Shown here in pieces: positions 16,854 to 27,260 of a stretch of DNA of 64,000 nt. The stretch is from Fragilariopsis cylindrus CCMP1102 (Eukaryota; Bacillariophyta; Bacillariophyceae; Bacillariales; Bacillariaceae): NCBI GenBank assembly GCA_900095095.1, contig FMBT01000291.1, forward strand, positions 496,001-560,000, read 5' to 3'. Positions within the stretch are counted from its first letter, which is position 1; each line of letters starts with the position of its first letter. The notes under the pieces are model-generated. The model was not told the origin of the DNA. It did not search any database and saw nothing but the letters and a program-made list of their open reading frames with translations. Made by a program: the position numbers and the translations under genes.

Positions 16854-19800
16854 TTACATTACAGAGCAAATTCCTTTATCGAGTGCATCGTTTATTGCAA
16901 TTGTATTTTCAACACGACTGTTCTTATGTTTCTGTGCAAGTCTGACAATCCAGTCATGTTCGAGTGCGTCCTTGGCAGTGATCCGTTCAGTGGGATCTGC
17001 TTTTAACATTTGTCCTACCAAATCACGAGCCTCGGGCGATATTCTACCCCATTCACTTCTGGGAAAATCCACTTCGGCATGCTTATTTGCCTGAATCAAT
17101 TCCTTTTCATTTTCGCCATAGAATGGTTCGTACCCGCATAGCATAACATATAGCGTTACACCAGCCGAGAAGACATCCACTTGATTCCCGTACCCTTGTC
17201 CAGCCTTAGCCATTAATATCTCTGGAGCGACATATCCAGGTGATCCACAACGTCCTCGTACGAGACCATCAAGACCGACTAATGTAGACATACCAAAGTC
17301 ACCAAGCTTCACTGACGTTCCGTACTTAGATTCGTTGGTCATGAAAATATTAGCAGGCTTAATATCACGATGTGCAATACCTATTTGTTTCATGTTTAAC
17401 AGACCAACTAGGATATCTCGAACAATACAGCCCGCCTCTTCCTCTTCAAGTACACCCTTCGAAGAAATGTATTCGAACAAGTCCTTTCCATCAAGAAGTT
17501 CCATTTCGATAACAATGTTATCAGAAGTTTCAAAAAACCCATGCAGTTGCAAAAAATTGTTGTATTTAGTACCAAACGTTGCAGTCAGAGTTGACTGTAC
17601 AGCTAATTCTCGTACTATCGTATCGCATCGTTCTCGTCCCTTTATAACGAGTTTCCAGAATTCGTTTTTATCAATGATCTTAAGGGCACAATTATTTTTG
17701 TTGCTGTTACGATTACGAGATTGCTCTTCTTGTTGATCAGATCGCTCTTCTTTTCCTCCTCCTCCGGATCCCTCGTTCTTATACGAGTTGTGAGTTGTTG
17801 TTCGTCGTCGAGCGGGATATATTGAAGCGTATCGACCAGTTCCTATCGGTTTATCTGTATCGAATTCCCATATGTCTTTAATTTGTAACTTAGCGGCATG
17901 GTTAAGGCATGTTATCCAATGATCTCTTTCATACCGATTTTGGACACGGATCATAAGTACTCGATGGTCGACCTTAGCACAAGGACTTGCATAGAAGTGT
18001 AATTCTAACGCATCTTGAAAGTCTTTATGCGCATATGCCATAGCGTTTTGTAGATGAGCGATCCCCCGTGGTAGAGTCGCTAACGGTGTACCCAAATCGT
18101 ATTCAAATAAGTAATTATGTCGTAATACTAGCTTACATGAAGACCATTTCCCGTACGTTAGATGATATTTGTCACCAACATACGTCATATGGGCTTCTCC
18201 TAATAAAATTTTACCATCCGAAGTGGAAGCATCAGTAGTAGTTCTAGTTGCAGTATCATCACCAGAAGCAGTAGCCTCTGTTGCTGATTGAGTCGACGAA
18301 CCGGTCAGAGTTTTGATTGTACTTAATGGACATGATGCCAAGGCGGCAGGTGCGATTAGATAGCGTCGACCTTGCATCCATGAATCGGCACCTTGGATAG
18401 GTTTTAACAACCGTATCCCACCACCCTTACCGTAATTATTCTTGATGGAACTATTCTGTTTTAATTCATCGACAGTCTCGAGGTGTGGGAGTGATTTACT
18501 GAATATCGAGGTATTAGAAACAGGATCATTATCATTACCTTCTTCTCCAGAGATAATAAGTTGTCCTTCTATAGTATCATTAACAGTACTGGTACTTGTT
18601 GTACCGGCATAAAAATAGGGCTGTTGCTGTTGATGTTGTCTTCCCCCCATTAACATAGCATTATGATGTGATACATAAGAATTATGCACACTACCAACAA
18701 GATCAAGATTTGATGCTTTATTATTACCACCAGAAATAAACGGACTAACAATTGAATCCCCTCGTCCATATTCAGAAGAATTATGAATTTTGGTAAAAGC
18801 CTTTTTCGTTTCTGGGGATGCTGCAAGTTGTTGCTGCTGCTGTTGGTTAGTGTTGTTGTTATTGTAGTGTTGAAACATATTATTATATGATGCAGAGGAT
18901 CCTGAAAAGACTGTAATAACATCTTCTCCGCCAAGTAACTCATCTAAGCTTTCTGGTGGTTCTGTGATACCACAGGTATTATTTGGTGGTGATAGTAGCT
19001 GTTGTTGTCCGTTATCATCGTCGTCATTGTCTGAGTCGTCTAGATTAAGTCCAACATCGTGGTTGTTATAATCAGTTAATGACGATGGTATTCTGTAATG
19101 ATTGCTGGGAGGTAGTAATGTGTTGCTGGGAGGTAATAATGTCGGTGCCATCATCATATGATGCTGTTGAGTTGCTGAATTGTTGCTACTATTGCTGCTG
19201 CTGTATGCAAATGCACTTGATCGAATTCGTGGTTGTTGTTGTGATGGTGATTGTGACTCCAGCCACTCAGACTGCGGCTGAAGTTGTGTCAAAGATGGAG
19301 CTGATGCATTACCAAGAGGTAATTCAACCCCTTCATTGTTAATTGGATTGACAAGCCAATCTATTGTAACTGTTCTATTTATATGCTCCTGTTGTTGAGC
19401 GGCAGTGGAGGGAGTAGTAGTAGCAGAAACAAATGCATTAGCAGCAATGTTGTTGAACATTTGTTGTTGTTGTTGTTGATGATGCTGTTCTCTTTGTATT
19501 ATTCCACGACGAAGAGAATCGGTTGCAGTAAAATTAGATTCTGTAGGAACGGAAGAAGAAAATGAATATGGCGAAGGCTTGTGCTGGTGTTGTTGTGGTT
19601 GTGGTTGTTTCCATCTTGATGTTCCATTATTCCCCCATCCTGTTGTTGTCTGGTATTTTGGAGAATTATCAGGACTCTGTTGACCGTGACTCGTCGTTGT
19701 TCTTGAAGTTTGCGAACTAGCTCTTTCTAATTTTAATTTCGATGCCGCCGTTGCCATTCCCTTTCGTAATGGTACATCTAATTCATCCATAGATTTATGA

Positions 19801-20618
19801 CCACGATTGAAGAATGATCGGCTATTACTACTGCCGTTACTCTTATTACTCTTGTTGCTGCTACGGCTATTATTACTGTTATCATCATGGACGTTACCGT
19901 TAGCGGCGTTATTACCACGTTTTGACGATGAAAACATCGACGTAAGACCACTAGGCTTATTACTATTATTATTCATACTATTCATATTCTTATTCATACT
20001 ATTCCTGGAAACGAATCGTCTTGATCCAGGTATTAATGAGAATGACGATTTTTTCTTGGATCCTTTCAATCCACCACCACCACTTGGGCTCTTACTGGAA
20101 CTTGTTGAATGTTCGTCGTTATTGTTGTCGAGTTGTTGATGTTCTGCAGTGGGTATAGTTGTTATACTACTAGACGGAGAAGATGACAATGTCGGTTGAT
20201 TTCTTCCTCTAAGGAATAAATTGAAGGCCCCTTCCCATCGTTTTCTATTAGGTGACCCACATGGAGACGATGATGGAAGGATCATTGGATCTTCGTCAAA
20301 GTCGTTCGCCGTGTTCGTTGTTGCAGATCTAAGACTACTTGTGCCGCCTGTATTTATAGCCGCCGCCGTCGATTTTGTCGACGTCCCGTTATTATTAGCG
20401 TTGTTGTTGCTTATCTGAAAATGCTGAGACGATCCATTCATGGTAAGAGATGAACAGGATGGGGATCGTTTGAATTTTCCTAGTTGTGCACGTGATTGTG
20501 ATTGAGATTGTGAATGTCGACTAGGTCCAGTGCTTATAGCAGCAAGTGTAGATGACGTACTATGATTAAAATCATCTATGCTGGAAGTAGTCGTTTCGCC
20601 CATTAAAGATTTCATCAT
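16854..20618 (-). CDS. Ser/Thr protein kinase with PH domain, CAMK/PKD-like
   Basis: Single exon, 1254 aa. About 800 N-terminal residues are Ser/Asn/Gln-rich and disordered. A PH-like domain follows (about 805-910; TYVGDKYHLTYGKWSSCKLV … HRVLMIRVQNRYERDHWITC), then the kinase domain (about 916-1225). The kinase has a Gly loop (IGTGRYASIY), Lys980 in CALKII, catalytic Asp1085 in AHRDIKPANIF, Asp1107 in LGDFG, then GSPGYVAPE and VDVFSAGVTLYVMLCG. All catalytic residues are present. A ~40-residue low-complexity insert separates the Gly loop from the Lys. A PH domain directly ahead of a CAMK-type kinase resembles protein kinase D, so membrane-recruited signalling is likely. Long Gln and Asn runs may vary in length between strains. 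Confidence 0.92.
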   Translation of the reverse strand: MMKSLMGETTTSSIDDFNHSTSSTLAAISTGPSRHSQSQSQSRAQLGKFKRSPSCSSLTMNGSSQHFQISNNNANNNGTSTKSTAAAINTGGTSSLRSATTNTANDFDEDPMILPSSSPCGSPNRKRWEGAFNLFLRGRNQPTLSSSPSSSITTIPTAEHQQLDNNNDEHSTSSSKSPSGGGGLKGSKKKSSFSLIPGSRRFVSRNSMNKNMNSMNNNSNKPSGLTSMFSSSKRGNNAANGNVHDDNSNNSRSSNKSNKSNGSSNSRSFFNRGHKSMDELDVPLRKGMATAASKLKLERASSQTSRTTTSHGQQSPDNSPKYQTTTGWGNNGTSRWKQPQPQQHQHKPSPYSFSSSVPTESNFTATDSLRRGIIQREQHHQQQQQQMFNNIAANAFVSATTTPSTAAQQQEHINRTVTIDWLVNPINNEGVELPLGNASAPSLTQLQPQSEWLESQSPSQQQPRIRSSAFAYSSSNSSNNSATQQHHMMMAPTLLPPSNTLLPPSNHYRIPSSLTDYNNHDVGLNLDDSDNDDDDNGQQQLLSPPNNTCGITEPPESLDELLGGEDVITVFSGSSASYNNMFQHYNNNNTNQQQQQQLAASPETKKAFTKIHNSSEYGRGDSIVSPFISGGNNKASNLDLVGSVHNSYVSHHNAMLMGGRQHQQQQPYFYAGTTSTSTVNDTIEGQLIISGEEGNDNDPVSNTSIFSKSLPHLETVDELKQNSSIKNNYGKGGGIRLLKPIQGADSWMQGRRYLIAPAALASCPLSTIKTLTGSSTQSATEATASGDDTATRTTTDASTSDGKILLGEAHMTYVGDKYHLTYGKWSSCKLVLRHNYLFEYDLGTPLATLPRGIAHLQNAMAYAHKDFQDALELHFYASPCAKVDHRVLMIRVQNRYERDHWITCLNHAAKLQIKDIWEFDTDKPIGTGRYASIYPARRRTTTHNSYKNEGSGGGGKEERSDQQEEQSRNRNSNKNNCALKIIDKNEFWKLVIKGRERCDTIVRELAVQSTLTATFGTKYNNFLQLHGFFETSDNIVIEMELLDGKDLFEYISSKGVLEEEEAGCIVRDILVGLLNMKQIGIAHRDIKPANIFMTNESKYGTSVKLGDFGMSTLVGLDGLVRGRCGSPGYVAPEILMAKAGQGYGNQVDVFSAGVTLYVMLCGYEPFYGENEKELIQANKHAEVDFPRSEWGRISPEARDLVGQMLKADPTERITAKDALEHDWIVRLAQKHKNSRVENTIAINDALDKGICSVM

Positions 20619-21415
20619 ACTATTGCCGGCGAATCACACACGATGTAGGACTACTTTCGCTTTAGACTTATCTGGTACTAGCTAATTACACAGGTCGGTC
20701 TAAGAAGCGAGACTAGCACGCCTCTTCTTATTTTGTTGGAGCTTCCTTTCTTGTTGCTCCTAATGCGAGGGGAACTTTCTTCTTGGGTAGTGAGTCAATA
20801 CAGGAAGCGTTCAATGACAAGGAACCCTTCATACATACTTGCACAAATAATAAATAACTCGTCGTGTTTACAATGTAATGATAATAATGCTCCGTTTCCT
20901 TCTGTCAAATTGGGGGCACACTACCACAGCCCTACAAAATCTACCGAATTAAGAATTCTTAGAATACTGTAGCAGTTGAAAGAGAATATGTGAAGGAACA
21001 AAGTTCCGAACTTTTGTAACGAACCTCTCACTCTAAAACATTGACAATCATTATTATAGCCCATCATGAGTGAGTCACGACCCACGACCCATTATTAGAA
21101 TTCTAGAACAGTTTTAGTCGAATGAATCGAATTGAATCGAGTCGTGTTCAAAATTGAAAAGTTAGAGTTAGGGTTGTGTAAAGTATCTTTTCCGTCACTA
21201 TTATTCTAACGATTGATTGGATGGAATGACCTCTTCTTCGTCTTTCTTTGACACCAAATTTAAATTTCGTTCTTTTCAAGGTGTTTTATGAAGTCTGAAA
21301 GATCGAGAACTCGAACATTATTGTCGCAAAACATACCTTGTACTAGTACTCACATTATTTAATCTTGGTGCTCTCACGACTGTACAAGAATTTAAAAGAA
21401 AGAAGCTATACCAGA
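20619..21415. other. Divergent intergenic region
   Basis: Upstream of both the kinase (-) and the CBS-domain gene (+). No gene, RNA or notable repeat recognised. Confidence 0.55.
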
Positions 21416-22241
21416 ATGAGGTCACTCCAATTTGCACTATCCATGCTATATTTAGCTAGTACCTCTGCGTTTTCTACTGAACATCATCATCGTGTATTCG
21501 TCTCGACACCAACGAAGCCGAATCTTCGCAAGGTTAAAGATTGCATGGTAAGGTCATCATTACGTGTGTCTGTGTCTGCGTCTGCGTCTGTGTAACTTAC
21601 CTAAGGAAACGATATCATGATGGCACTCCTATCATGCTCTGCCTAGTTTGTCTTACAACACCACATTGTCCTCTCATTTCATCTTGTGTATTGATATTAT
21701 CATGATTTGCGATTTTTCGTTGATATTGTTATTTGTCATTTTGTATATTTTCGCAAAACAGACCCCCAGTCCAATAACACTCAAAACCACCGACAAAGTT
21801 GATGAGGCCATTGTTGTTCTATTAACCGGAGGATTTAATGGAGCTCCAGTCGTCGATCCTGTAACAAACAATTTGGTTGGTTGTGTAAGTGCATTTGATT
21901 TTATACAAAAGGAAGAAACAGGAGCGGTACTACCATTCGATATAGAAGATCCAGAAGAGCAACAAAGAATGATGGTCGCAGCACGAAAGATTGTTGCGAC
22001 AACCGTTGGTGAATTGATGACGGATTCAGCTTTGACTGTTACTATGGGTACGAGTATGAGAGACGCTGCAGAGCTTTTAACTAGGGAAAAAAAGCATCGA
22101 CTGTGTGTTATAGACGACAACAATAATCTAGTAGGTATTCTATCATCTTCAGACGTAATGAGAAATATTGTTGATGTTCTTCGGGCTTTACCCGAAACGT
22201 CGTCAGCGGTACCTACTGAAGAAAAAGTTGTATCTGAATAA
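21416..22241 (+). CDS. Plastid-targeted CBS-domain protein (CBSX-like)
   Basis: Two exons: 21416-21547 and 21762-22241, joined in phase 0 across a 214-bp intron (GTAAGG…AAACAG), giving 203 aa. The join creates the start of a CBS motif, KDCM-TPSPITLKTTDKVDE. The N-terminus MRSLQFALSMLYLASTSAFS is a signal peptide ending in an ASAF-like motif, the diatom plastid-entry signal. Two CBS repeats follow: AIVVLLTGGFNGAPVVDP … GCVSAFDFIQ, and VGELMTDSALTVT … HRLCVIDDNNNLVGILSSSD. CBS pairs bind adenosine nucleotides. Plant CBSX proteins regulate plastid thioredoxins, so a redox or energy-sensing role is plausible but inferred. Confidence 0.88.
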
Positions 22242-22497: not shown

Positions 22498-25400
22498 TCA
22501 TGGTACGCCAAAAGTATCAAGCTCGTGGTTGCATCTATTGATGTATGTAAGGTCGGGGTACCCATAGTTTTCGGTGCCTCCATTTAATTTGGTTTTATGG
22601 TGGATGGATGACCAAACGACTTGATTTCGTTCGCCACTAGTCATGGAGGTTCCAACCGTAAATGTAAGACCTCGACGGAATGCTTCCTGTAAGCGGTATG
22701 ACAAGCCGATTCCCTCTGAAGTGTATGGAATGAACGCCGTTCGACTTGCACTGGAATGTCGTTGTCCCGGCTCCTCGTGATAGTCCTTTTGCATTCCGGC
22801 AAAAATTTCATAGTCGATTACGATCGTGCTGTAGTTTTTAGATCCTTCACAGTGTTTTGATTTGTCAATCGTCACTGTCATAATACCGGAAGGCATCTTT
22901 CCTCGGATTGTATCTTGCGGGCTCCGGCAGATGGGACAAAGGTGGCTGGTAGCTAGCATTGGTATAGCACAATCTTTGTGAAATTCGTGCCCGCAGGATT
23001 TTAACGCTACTTTTTTAGAACTAAGATTATAAGTGCAAACACAAATAGGGCATTTATCCTCAATGTTGACACAATGAATACCAACATCAATACAAAGCGC
23101 CGTTAGATCAACCTTATTGAAAGTGGCAGGTGCTTCGTAAGCAATGATCTGGGGTGTGTATACAAGTTTAGGCATCTTCTTTCTTGCACGACTCTTGACA
23201 TTGCATCTACGATAGTTGACCCTATCAGCACTCGATTTAAGCCGAGTATTCTCATTCCTGTGAAAATAATCTTCCACGAGGCACTGGAGCTTTCGCTCAA
23301 ATAGTCTCAAACGAGCCAAACCTTCTTGGCTGGTTGAAAACTCTTCAGCCGGAAATTGAATTACGGGAAGACACTGAGAGCAATCTTTTAGAACTAACAG
23401 ACTCGGTCTCTTCCTGCTTGTAATAGAATCGTTTCCATTGTCATAACCTCGTCCAGCCTCCTTTGCATCCATTGATTCTCCTTTCAAGCGTAGCACCATC
23501 AACCCAACACTTCCATAGTCTGAAAAGGAGTGTGCATCGTTAGCCGTGTATATTCCTTCGCCATATCGTGACCCATTGTAATTACTTGAGATTTGTTTTG
23601 AACTCCGCTCCTTTTGATTCAATAGTCCGTCAGTTCTGATACGGTTTAAGTACTCCGGTTTCGTGTAATGATATCCTATGTCAACTCGACGACATTTGTC
23701 GTCGCTACAAAAAATTCCTGCCGAAGAAAGATGCGCTCTGCCAAAAAGACGAGATCATCATTAGCCAATATCTTTAACGGACAATCATTTCCTTTATTAC
23801 CCTGACAATAATCTTCGAATCGTAATTCATCAAAAGATCTATCAGCATATTGGTGCATGGCTAAATAGAATGCAACCTGATGTTTCTGCTTCCGTCTTGC
23901 CGCGATTGCGCTTGGATAGGAGCAACCCGTGTTCCAGGTTCCCTCACCTGTAGTGGTGGAAGGGGACCGAAGGTTTGTATGGGTGTGCCAAACATTCCTC
24001 CAGTAGCTTGAGGATGTCCTCCAAAAGCATGAGTTGTGGTTGTTCTGCCAAATTCTCCTCCAGCTCCAAAACCACTGGATGCAGCGGGTCCTGATCCAAA
24101 CGGACTAATTGCTGCTGCTGGTTGTCCACCGAAACCTGTGTTGCTTATGTTGTTGTTGGTGGTGTGGAACTGCCTTCCAAAGACCGTCGATAAAGTAGAA
24201 GCAGCGCCAATACCAATGGATGCATTATTTTGAATCCCCCGAAACCCTCCTCCAAATGGCGAAGGTGACAGTCTTACAATGATAGAACATGAAGGAGATG
24301 GTGTTGCATTGCCAAATGTTGAGGTCGGAGGCACTGAACCTCCATCGAATGGAGGTTGTTTAGGATTACTGTTTGCATTTGAAGACGAAAAAGCACCAAA
24401 AGTTGATGAGGAAAGAGCCTGAGCCTGTCTTCCAAAACCTCCTGGTGGTGCGGATGCCGCCGTTGCAAACGGAGACTGCGATTGAGCAGCTAAAGGAGCC
24501 CCAAAGGCACCATTCGGTACAAGAGTAGTGTTGCCCCCGAACGGTGACGAATTTGCGAAAGCTCCTGATGAAGCAGCAGCCAATCCAAAGGGACTACTTC
24601 CTACCGCTGCTTTTTCAACGAGATCAGTGTTGTTGCTGGATCGCCCTCCAAAGCCCGTCGATGTAGCGGGATCTGGTGCTCCAAACGCTACTGTCGATGC
24701 AGACAAATTTCGACCATAAAAGACTTCTAAAGGATTCCGGATTTGGTACTTCGATGCTAAACTTCGAAATAGCTCCGTCTCTTTCCCCTTCAGACAAAGA
24801 AAAATAATTTGTAGTAACCTGCCGTGTGAGAGTAGATTATACTTATACATTATATACTACTGATTCCTAAAACAATAAGATTACACGTACCTTGTACTTC
24901 TTTAGAATACTTTTCAATTCCACTAGCTTATCGGGATCTTGCTGTTTATAAATTTTCCGAATCATAGCCTCGTAATGAGGTACGATATCGTTGTTACCAA
25001 ATACCAGTGGAGATGAAAGGTAATCTTTATTCTGAAAGTCCCAGACTAATGTCTGTAGATCTTCGACAAACCTCCAGGCTTTTGACAATGCGAACTTCAT
25101 TTCATTTTCTTGATCGAATTTCAGTCGATATGAGCGGGCTAAGAAGTCTTCGTTGCTGTTGGGAAATGAGACTGGTTGTGTTAGTAGGCTGCTTCCTCCA
25201 TTTATAGGCTTCGACGACCTTCGAGCTTTGTTGGATGGGAGCGATGGGTATGGAGCACATAGAGTTGGAGCTTTTGCTGAAATCGGTGGATATCGAGCAT
25301 AATTACTATGAGTATTTTTTCTCTGTTTACCTTTCTGTACCCTCATCGGTATTACTGGGTTCAATGGTATCATTCTCCGATTGTTCGTGATTTTTTTCTT

Positions 25401-25592
25401 TGGTGGATATGGAGCACAATCACGACCATCATTCTCCGATTGTTCCTGACTTCTTTCTTCGACCACTTGAGAGTGATGCGGAACAAGAATTTGTTGTATT
25501 AAGTGAAGCATGAATAATGCAACTATCGCTGCCCACCATTCTTCAATGCGAGGAACGAAATGGTTGACAACCCGATGAATCCAAACCCACAT
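22498..25592 (-). CDS. FG-repeat / ART(PARP)-like / RING-Deltex (DTC) fusion protein
   Basis: Predicted 945 aa in four exons: 25592-24891, 24787-23948, 23876-23801 and 23717-22498. All splices keep phase; introns are 103, 71 and 83 bp. Residues 17-40 contain a membrane segment (WWAAIVALFMLHLIQQIL). FG repeats fill about 250-510. VAFYLAMHQYADRSFDELRF then EDY resembles the Nup98 element next to GLEBS. An ART/PARP-like fold (about 545-660) shows GYHYT with His556 and RYGEGIYTAND. A RING (762-803; CPICVC … CGHEFHK … CPIC) and a Deltex DTC domain (811-945; YSTIVIDYEI, FTVGTSMTSGE, His912/His913 in SSIHHKT, YGYPD) follow. RING-DTC ligases ubiquitinate and bind ADP-ribose. The RING-DTC call is strong and the ART call moderate. 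The fusion depends on the 83-bp intron; otherwise these are two overlapping genes. Confidence 0.72.
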
Positions 25593-26449: not shown

Positions 26450-26455
26450 AAAAAA
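26450..26455 (-). terminator. Pol III terminator of the 5S gene
   Basis: Six T residues on the minus strand, overlapping the last base of the 5S gene, the normal polymerase III stop. Confidence 0.75.
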
Positions 26456-26574
26456 GAACATCACCTGGAATTGATTCCAATGTAGTCCCCCAACGTAGTA
26501 CTAACCATGCTCGACCATGCTTAACTTCGCTGAGCAGATTGGAAGTAGTGCTGACATGTTGGTATGGTCGTTCT
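26455..26574 (-). rRNA. 5S ribosomal RNA
   Basis: 120 nt read on the minus strand. The ends pair (AGAACG with TGTTCT). Core signatures are in the right order: CGACCATACC near the 5' end, TCAGCGAAGTTAAGC in the middle, then GGTTAGTACTACGTTGGGGG and ATTGGAATC. These include the internal polymerase III control boxes. A T6 run directly at the 3' end serves as terminator. It is a single dispersed copy in this window, away from other rRNA genes. No disabling change is visible, but I cannot tell whether it is expressed. Confidence 0.9.
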
Positions 26575-27260
26575 CTCGTTTTCGCCTGATTTTGATGTAT
26601 ATGGTAGTATGTTCTGGCATAGGACTATACAATAATCGTGTTAGATACTATTTTTTATTTTGGGGCTAAATCATTTCTTTTCACTAGTACTGGCTACATA
26701 AGTTTCTACATGAAAGACTTTACATGGACTAAATCACCTAGGATCCGGGTGGACTATCCTACGAAAGTCTAATTAGTACTCAAAAAGCTCAAAGCAATGG
26801 ATTACTTAAATTAAGAGAGAGAGAGAGAAGTATATATTTAGATTTGTGAGTTTTATTTATGTCTACGGTGCATTGTGAATTGAGCTCAATCTACATTCAA
26901 ATGTTTGTTTGGAATATTATAATGTCTGTACCATGTTCAAATGTTGATAATAATATGTGTGTAGTTTTGCTTAAATTTGACCAGAAAAATCAGATTTTCA
27001 TTGATTCCAGCGAGGAAGGCAAATTTTTGAATTCTTGTGACAAAATCAAGATCAGATGCCAAAAAACCACAACTGCGACAATTAGTCGGAGAAACACTCT
27101 TTAAATATGGAAGGGTCATCCTTGCCAGCCATTGGATCATTGAGAACTTGATTCCTGGATGGCATAACGTTTTACTGGCAGTAAAAGAATGCTGCTTTCA
27201 AAAGTTTGAACTGAAAAACATGCCAAAACTGAAATCAATTGGTTGACTCTGCAGTTACGT
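26575..27260. other. Intergenic
   Basis: Upstream of the 5S gene and 3' flank of the next minus-strand gene. A GA run is near 26815. ORFs at 26859-27246 have no coding support. Confidence 0.55.

Follow-up and report, generated by a model that had tools for sequence, protein, structure and literature searches.

Human Deltex ubiquitin ligases (E3s) can ubiquitylate PARP-attached ADP-ribose, but the writer of the ADP-ribose and the ligase are separate proteins there (PMC7615817, PMC12000418). Fusions of a PARP with an E3 or a ubiquitin-conjugating enzyme (E2) have also been published, namely U-box-PARP in Dictyostelium and UBCc-PARP6/8 (PMC4245714). The stretch analysed here, referred to as the window, consists of 64,000 nucleotides of the diatom Fragilariopsis cylindrus CCMP1102 (contig FMBT01000291.1, positions 496,001 to 560,000 of the forward strand), and one gene in it appears to combine an ADP-ribosyltransferase (ART) fold, a Deltex-type ubiquitin ligase and a nucleoporin-derived piece. 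Two protein-marking activities that in animals reside on separate partners may here share one chain with a nuclear-pore address. The favoured reading, to which slightly better than an even chance is given, is that of a single-chain E3 from a diatom family, in which an ART resembling mono-ADP-ribosyltransferases (mono-ARTs) and a RING with a Deltex C-terminal domain (DTC) work in cis, and in which the insert and the N-terminus target the pore or RAE1/Gle2.

The whole gene occupies the minus strand at 25592-22498 and has two exons. Exon 2 extends to the stop at 22498 and encodes, in this order, phenylalanine-glycine (FG) repeats, a GLEBS element, a pre-ART stretch, the ART-like domain, a RING-H2 and the DTC. 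Residue numbers of the ART, RING and DTC are counted from 23715.

24891-25592, minus strand: exon 1, an open frame of 234 codons in phase 0, homologous to the N-terminal half of the protein P0003; it encodes an N-terminal hydrophobic segment (25538-25482), a basic linker and then a helical-looking region with the family's KAWxFV stretch
24788-24890, minus strand: intron 1 (GTACGT...AAG), splice sites read, both flanks coded by P0003 in a single frame
24202-24593, minus strand: FG repeats part 1, similar to the genome's GLE1-FG-CCCH gene on contig C664
23791-24142, minus strand: FG repeats part 2 and GLEBS, similar to the genome's Nup98 gene on contig C81
23791-23935, minus strand: GLEBS (RAE1/Gle2-binding) element, PF21240, interrupted by the frame break near 23862
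23715-23768, minus strand: conserved pre-ART stretch DDxVFLAERxxxxQ (A1 consensus), ending at the second frame break
23260-23685, minus strand: PARP-type ART fold, predicted from an AlphaFold2 model with Foldseek and VIA-align and from the alignment
22924-23055, minus strand: RING-H2, PF13639, with ligands C222, C225, C241, H243, H246, C249, C260 and C263
22504-22902, minus strand: DTC, PF18102, with H372 and E398 placed by alignment
22498-22500, minus strand: stop codon

The single chain is best seen in the relative P0125, a protein of 784 residues that is 98% identical to the window protein and carries FG repeats, GLEBS, ART, RING and DTC stop-free to the end of the DTC. The frame of the window copy is broken twice, each time by a single base, near 23862 and again near 23715; across the 763 residues aligned with P0125, 746 are identical with 0 gaps, and each break falls on a single residue. 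P0125 represents a cluster of 33 sequences, and the comparison rests on this representative. P0123 translates across both break sites and P0006 across the second, the pre-ART stretch is translated without interruption in P0125, P0123, P0006 and P0001, and P0001 is stop-free over FG repeats, a USP8_dimer domain, ART, RING and DTC. Since P0125, P0123 and P0006 read through, the window has frame breaks at these sites and not introns. A preliminary description of this DNA had linked the ART-RING-Deltex part by phase-matched introns to the membrane segment, the FG repeats and the Nup98-like element; this holds for the intron at 24890-24788, which is well supported because P0003 encodes both flanks in a single frame, but fails between the FG repeats, GLEBS and ART. 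The introns 23947-23886 and 23800-23718 were considered, and on paper both restore the frame, yet they remove coding sequence that is translated in P0125, P0123, P0006 or P0001; the former additionally overlaps a stretch that aligns with uninterrupted coding sequence of Nup98. The sequences show which domains are present and, in P0125, how they follow one another on a single chain.

The breaks themselves are likelier to stem from assembly or sequencing error than from a real change in CCMP1102. The contigs C166 and C562, a haplotype-like pair, differ by 26 one-base indels and 15 mismatches in 9442 aligned bases, an indel excess that looks like residual sequencing error; C60 and C803 show no such excess (44 one-base indels and 230 mismatches in 9676 aligned bases). 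A partial second copy of the gene (L041, contig C271, 1-1028) covers exon 1 and the FG start, likewise differs from the window mostly by indels, and stops with its contig before reaching either break, so that it offers no second-haplotype check of them. That the locus is not one protein at all but two adjacent genes, a pseudogene in decay or an artefact of the assembly is held to be very improbable, and on the side of architecture it is strongly opposed already. It draws on the two breaks, on the C271 copy, whose differences from the window are mostly indels and which lacks most of the stretch holding the start codon and hydrophobic segment, on the contig pair without indel excess, and on P0123, which terminates within the ART, so that some natural copies may be damaged too. 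The gapless, stop-free alignment of P0125, which stands for its whole cluster, and the uninterrupted P0001 speak for one protein.

The ART-like motifs that had been noticed upstream of the RING are present, and the prediction of the fold agrees with them. The AlphaFold2 model of this segment has a predicted local distance difference test score (pLDDT) of 90.2 and a predicted template modelling score (pTM) of 0.85, and for the ART-only model all 50 Foldseek and all 50 VIA-align matches listed are of PARP type, which makes it a predicted PARP-type ART fold. The triad residues H16 (23670-23668), Y56 (23550-23548) and L106 (23400-23398) are assigned via sequence alignment, not superposition. His and Tyr are invariant across the family rows wherever the letter is present. 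Glu at the PARP spacing is found in the C59 paralogue and in P0030, P0045, P0055, P0057 and P0059. Triads of the H-Y-E and H-Y-hydrophobic kinds are tabulated, and Ile or Leu replacing the Glu is described as usual in active mono-ARTs (PMC9149570).

The RING and the DTC, both named in the preliminary description, lie well above their Pfam cut-offs, the RING with 36.0 bits for PF13639 (cut-off 27.3) and the DTC with 140.6 bits for PF18102 (cut-off 25). All eight zinc ligands of the RING are in the window, and each is kept in 38-40 of 42 family rows. H372 (22602-22600) aligns with His582 of DTX2 and E398 (22524-22522) with its Glu608, two residues that have been proposed to act as a pair in activating the hydroxyl of ADP-ribose (PMC7615817); the H372 column holds His in 35/40 family rows and the E398 column Glu in 36/41. 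With a DTC, a RING before it and the catalytic His-Glu pair, the protein is a predicted Deltex-type ligase. Sequence and modelling thus agree on an ART fold, on the full set of RING ligands and on the catalytic His and Glu of the DTC.

The insert between exon 1 and the pre-ART stretch is of nucleoporin origin, as its resemblance to this genome's own nucleoporin genes indicates. It was said at the outset to contain FG repeats and a Nup98-like ELRFEDY element, and both are borne out: 17 FG occur in 308 residues, compared with 3.7 expected from composition, and the ELRFEDY element is a GLEBS match (PF21240, 25.7 bits, E 1.2e-5, slightly below the Pfam cut-off of 27) that reaches 31.3 bits in the relative P0123. 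In DNA the FG part is a mosaic with the GLE1-FG-CCCH gene on C664 and the Nup98 gene on C81 as its closest counterparts. Part 1 has 79% DNA identity to the former across 24593-24246, with 24272-24202 matching too, and part 2 with GLEBS has 73% identity to the latter across 24061-23791, with 24142-24095 matching too; in the C81 gene FG and GLEBS share one exon. The differences from Nup98 in the GLEBS core are, by eye, mostly amino-acid changes, and constraint on GLEBS is therefore unproven. Nup98 possesses a C-terminal autoproteolytic domain, of which the Pfam scans of four window pieces and of P0125 gave no match. The window protein, judged by its domains, is an enzyme with a Nup98 piece and not a Nup98. 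The C664 gene is itself a composite, as one open frame (L042, 2-2188) joins GLE1 (PF07817, 80.1 bits) to FG repeats and to a CCCH zinc finger, in effect fusing GLE1 with a NUP42-like part. The stretch 'HYEAMIRK...KETELFRSLASKY' at window positions 25000-24720 (minus strand), which separates the N-terminal part from the insert, is a small module that is also present in P0003 and partially in P0015.

The favoured reading can be put as a sequence of steps. The PARP-type ART, with its mono-ART-like H-Y-L triad, would most likely put one ADP-ribose onto itself or onto a bound target. The adjoining RING-DTC would bind that ADP-ribose and then ubiquitylate either the ADP-ribose or a nearby lysine via a RING-bound E2, a step modelled by analogy on human DTX2 and DTX3L, which use ADP-ribose supplied from elsewhere. 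The FG-GLEBS insert and the hydrophobic N-terminus would direct the protein to nuclear pores or to RAE1/Gle2. We infer that it transfers ADP-ribose, that it ubiquitylates ADP-ribose in cis, that it binds RAE1 and that it is located at the pore or envelope.

Several observations weigh against such a reading. The Foldseek TM-scores to PARPs are just 0.41-0.54, a distant match. The window's ART has no PARP match in Pfam; PF00644 is matched by 7 of 15 ART rows, weakly (best E 0.0078), with 0 matches for the window copy, and one row scores Tox-ART-HYD1 (0.0023) slightly above PF00644. The ART profile finds no significant PARP among PDB sequences, PARP13 having an E of 0.13 and standing below a DarT (0.041) and two chains of biliverdin reductase (0.007). 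The column of the catalytic Glu is variable, with Glu at one of two adjacent positions in 19 of 41 rows and none in the window. PARPs carry Gly after the triad His, whereas this position is Tyr in 40 of the 41 rows with a letter and Trp in one; the ART is therefore called PARP-like and not a proven PARP. To these are added the two frame breaks of a copy compared with one representative of 33, and GLEBS scores that, in the window as in P0125, lie slightly below the Pfam cut-off.

An ART that is catalytically dead, or a scaffold binding NAD+ or ADP-ribose, has also to be weighed; the RING-DTC would then be the sole enzyme, and the ART would position substrates or sense NAD+. This is possible but on the whole unlikely. 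The absence of Glu from the window's clade and the Tyr in place of Gly would suit it, a lack of activity has been described for both PARP9 and PARP13 (PMC9149570, PMC10810221), and the RING-DTC of DTX3L by itself ubiquitylates NAD+ and ADP-ribose (PMC10810221). It accords less well with the invariant His and Tyr, with the hydrophobic residues that active mono-ARTs usually have for Glu and with the members that retain Glu at the PARP spacing.

Other origins were considered as well. Tox-ART-HYD1, Exotoxin A and DarT are each matched by a single row of the 15 (E 0.0023, 0.0096 and 0.02), and the fold searches, although they list PARPs, are compatible still with these bacterial-type families. The biliverdin reductase (Rv2074) matches in the PDB are put down to chance, as the triad-His column has no His there and the Tyr is not reached. 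When viral contigs were scanned with the family alignment, 27 pattern matches came up, with no relative among them.

Capture of nucleoporin pieces is not confined to the window protein. P0003 and P0015 are devoid of the insert, and P0001 has at the same site FG repeats and a USP8_dimer domain (residues 157-241, 31.3 bits) in place of GLEBS, another domain captured there. P0138, in which the ART is truncated at the beginning, falls outside the window's clade and has FG repeats and three GLEBS (PF21240, 95.2 bits) between ART and RING. In a tree built from 52 RING-DTC rows (of the 55 given, P0014, P0142 and P0163 were left out for want of the cutting motif), GLEBS requires two changes, both forced by well-supported branches, and 0 of 200 bootstrap trees permit one; the bootstraps are incompletely settled, and GLEBS was labelled by motif, with some rows also Pfam-scanned. 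Together with the differing position of the insert, the tree points to two separate gains of GLEBS. FG-rich linkers between ART and RING also occur in P0140 (Mayamaea), P0049, P0170, P0022 and P0137. The recurrence of FG and GLEBS in the family suggests that these enzymes benefit from contact with the nuclear pore or RAE1. For the family at large, FG enrichment is suggestive only: 65 ART-RING linkers (P0001 and P0125 not included) hold 38 FG and 19 GF with 15.7 expected, 27 of the 38 FG come from five members, and 60 N-terminal segments show no FG excess (FG 15, GF 14, expected 12.9).

The repeated capture could also be explained by bait, in that viral or parasite factors attacking RAE1-NUP98 would bind the GLEBS and become ADP-ribosylated and ubiquitylated, though this is rather improbable. 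Integrated decoys exist in plant immune receptors, and the GLEBS at two different sites in two separate branches, the three copies in P0138 and the variable insert region among relatives, as with the USP8_dimer domain, would all suit a bait. To our knowledge no diatom virus factor binds RAE1. RAE1-NUP98 is targeted by several animal viruses (PMC12666860) and antiviral roles are assigned to PARP9:DTX3L (PMC10810221), whereas the expression evidence ties diatom Deltex proteins to sexual reproduction (PMC12618581). A broader version, also a long shot, would have diatom immune-like or quality-control ligases in which a mono-ART and a Deltex write an ADP-ribose-ubiquitin mark in cis and which repeatedly capture the host's FG or GLEBS modules as integrated decoys, or to guard the gate formed by RAE1-Nup98.

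The single-chain ligase of the favoured reading belongs to a sizeable family. The first homologue search returned 130 proteins, many among the best 120 covering 92-100% of ART-RING-DTC, and the third at least 70, some of them longer; the majority of the family matches are unnamed metagenome proteins. ART, RING and DTC motifs occur together in at least 67 of 175 proteins (P0138 and P0049 uncounted), the strict first version of the ART patterns being found in 2 of 175 and the looser pattern pair in 88 of 175. Both ART motifs are present in 12 of 13 diatom-named proteins, the exception P0062 being a 350-residue piece, and in none of the 9 named animal and fungal proteins. Named sources include Mayamaea pseudoterrestris, Cylindrotheca closterium, Chaetoceros tenuissimus, Thalassiosira exigua and Bacillariaceae sp. 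The architecture thus recurs in other stramenopiles, and the one-protein arrangement put forward earlier for an alga stands, as P0125 shows, but not as the oddity of a single alga, since at least five named diatom sources have ART-RING-DTC. The diatom-type family is split in the tree from two animal proteins and P0173 with support 100/99, and the window clusters with P0125, P0001, P0003 and P0002 with support 100/97. Further DTC genes of the genome lie on C59 (with an ART that has the Glu), C60/C803 and C166/C562; L010/L011 (C60/C803) and L012/L013 (C166/C562) comprise a tandem pair of RING-DTC units and a long acidic RING-DTC protein, with no ART match reported in these genes. P0168 and P0169 combine RING-DTC with Pfam entries of the precomputed list that we take to be WGR and WWE.

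In four diatoms, members of the Deltex family increase as the cells reproduce sexually (PMC12618581), which raises the prospect of a ligase induced by sex or meiosis that would remodel nuclear pores or proteins of the nuclear envelope. The several members with FG-rich ART-RING linkers would fit such a role, and so would the hydrophobic N-termini common to the window protein, P0010 and P0036. The membrane segment proposed earlier for the window protein stands as a hydrophobic stretch, with residues 19-37 as the best 19-residue window at a mean hydropathy of 1.85. The role is nevertheless doubtful, as the passage in PMC12618581 leaves the identity of the Deltex genes and the presence of an ART unstated.

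In the neighbourhood of the gene, a 5S rRNA match lies about 0.9 kb upstream (26453-26575, minus strand, Rfam 56.3 bits), a CBS-domain frame adjoins it (21621-22241, plus strand), and a frame of 1259 codons with a protein kinase domain lies at 16854-20633 (minus strand).

Overall, the interpretation in the preliminary description is supported, and two checks that it proposed, on the predicted fold and on the same architecture in other stramenopiles, came out in its favour; corrections concern the introns, the spread of the family and the DNA kinship of the insert to the genome's nucleoporin genes. No ART-Deltex chain and no GLEBS in a ligase is described in the literature searched, in which deltex, ADP-ribosyltransferase and diatom were not found together either. 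The individual parts are all of known kinds, and what is new to us is the Deltex pairing, the nucleoporin insert and its repeated capture; the novelty is placed in the pairing and the insert because other E3/E2-PARP fusions are already published. A natural single chain with both ART and Deltex is evolutionary evidence that both steps belong together, and it offers a compact enzyme for testing action in cis. The capture of Nup98 pieces in two branches of ART-Deltex ligases would tie them to the nuclear pore and RAE1. The family also bears on the printed picture of few or no PARPs in diatoms (PMC4245714).

Human DTX3L-PARP9 consists of two proteins in animals, in contrast to the one chain of the diatom family. 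The Pfam scans of the window pieces and of P0125 gave no macrodomain match, and the gene is therefore not filed as a DTX3L-PARP9 system, though it may work alike. The PARP9 triad, Q-Y-T, also differs from that of the window. In the printed motif table the PARP9 entry is blank (PMC9149570). The mono-ART PARPs (PARP12, PARP10, PARP14 and PARP15) are the best fold matches listed and share the H-Y-hydrophobic triad, whereas the window's ART precedes a RING-DTC, has Tyr for Gly after the His and resembles them in sequence below Pfam detection. Unlike the RING-DTC ligases DTX1 and DTX2 of humans, the window protein has an ART and a nucleoporin insert instead of WWE, for which the scans of the window pieces and P0125 gave no match. 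U-box-PARP and UBCc-PARP6/8 likewise have an ART and ubiquitin machinery on a shared chain, but with a U-box or an E2-like fold instead of RING-DTC, and the excerpt of their source mentions no nucleoporin insert (PMC4245714). The FG-GLEBS region of NUP98 is matched in DNA through this genome's own Nup98 gene, but here it sits inside an E3 ligase with no autoproteolytic-domain match. The eukaryotic protein P0173 (JGI) comes close in plan, with PARP (PF00644, 48.9 bits), RING and DTC on a single chain; it clusters with two animal Deltex proteins and not with the diatom family, and by this placement it is a separate PARP-Deltex fusion.
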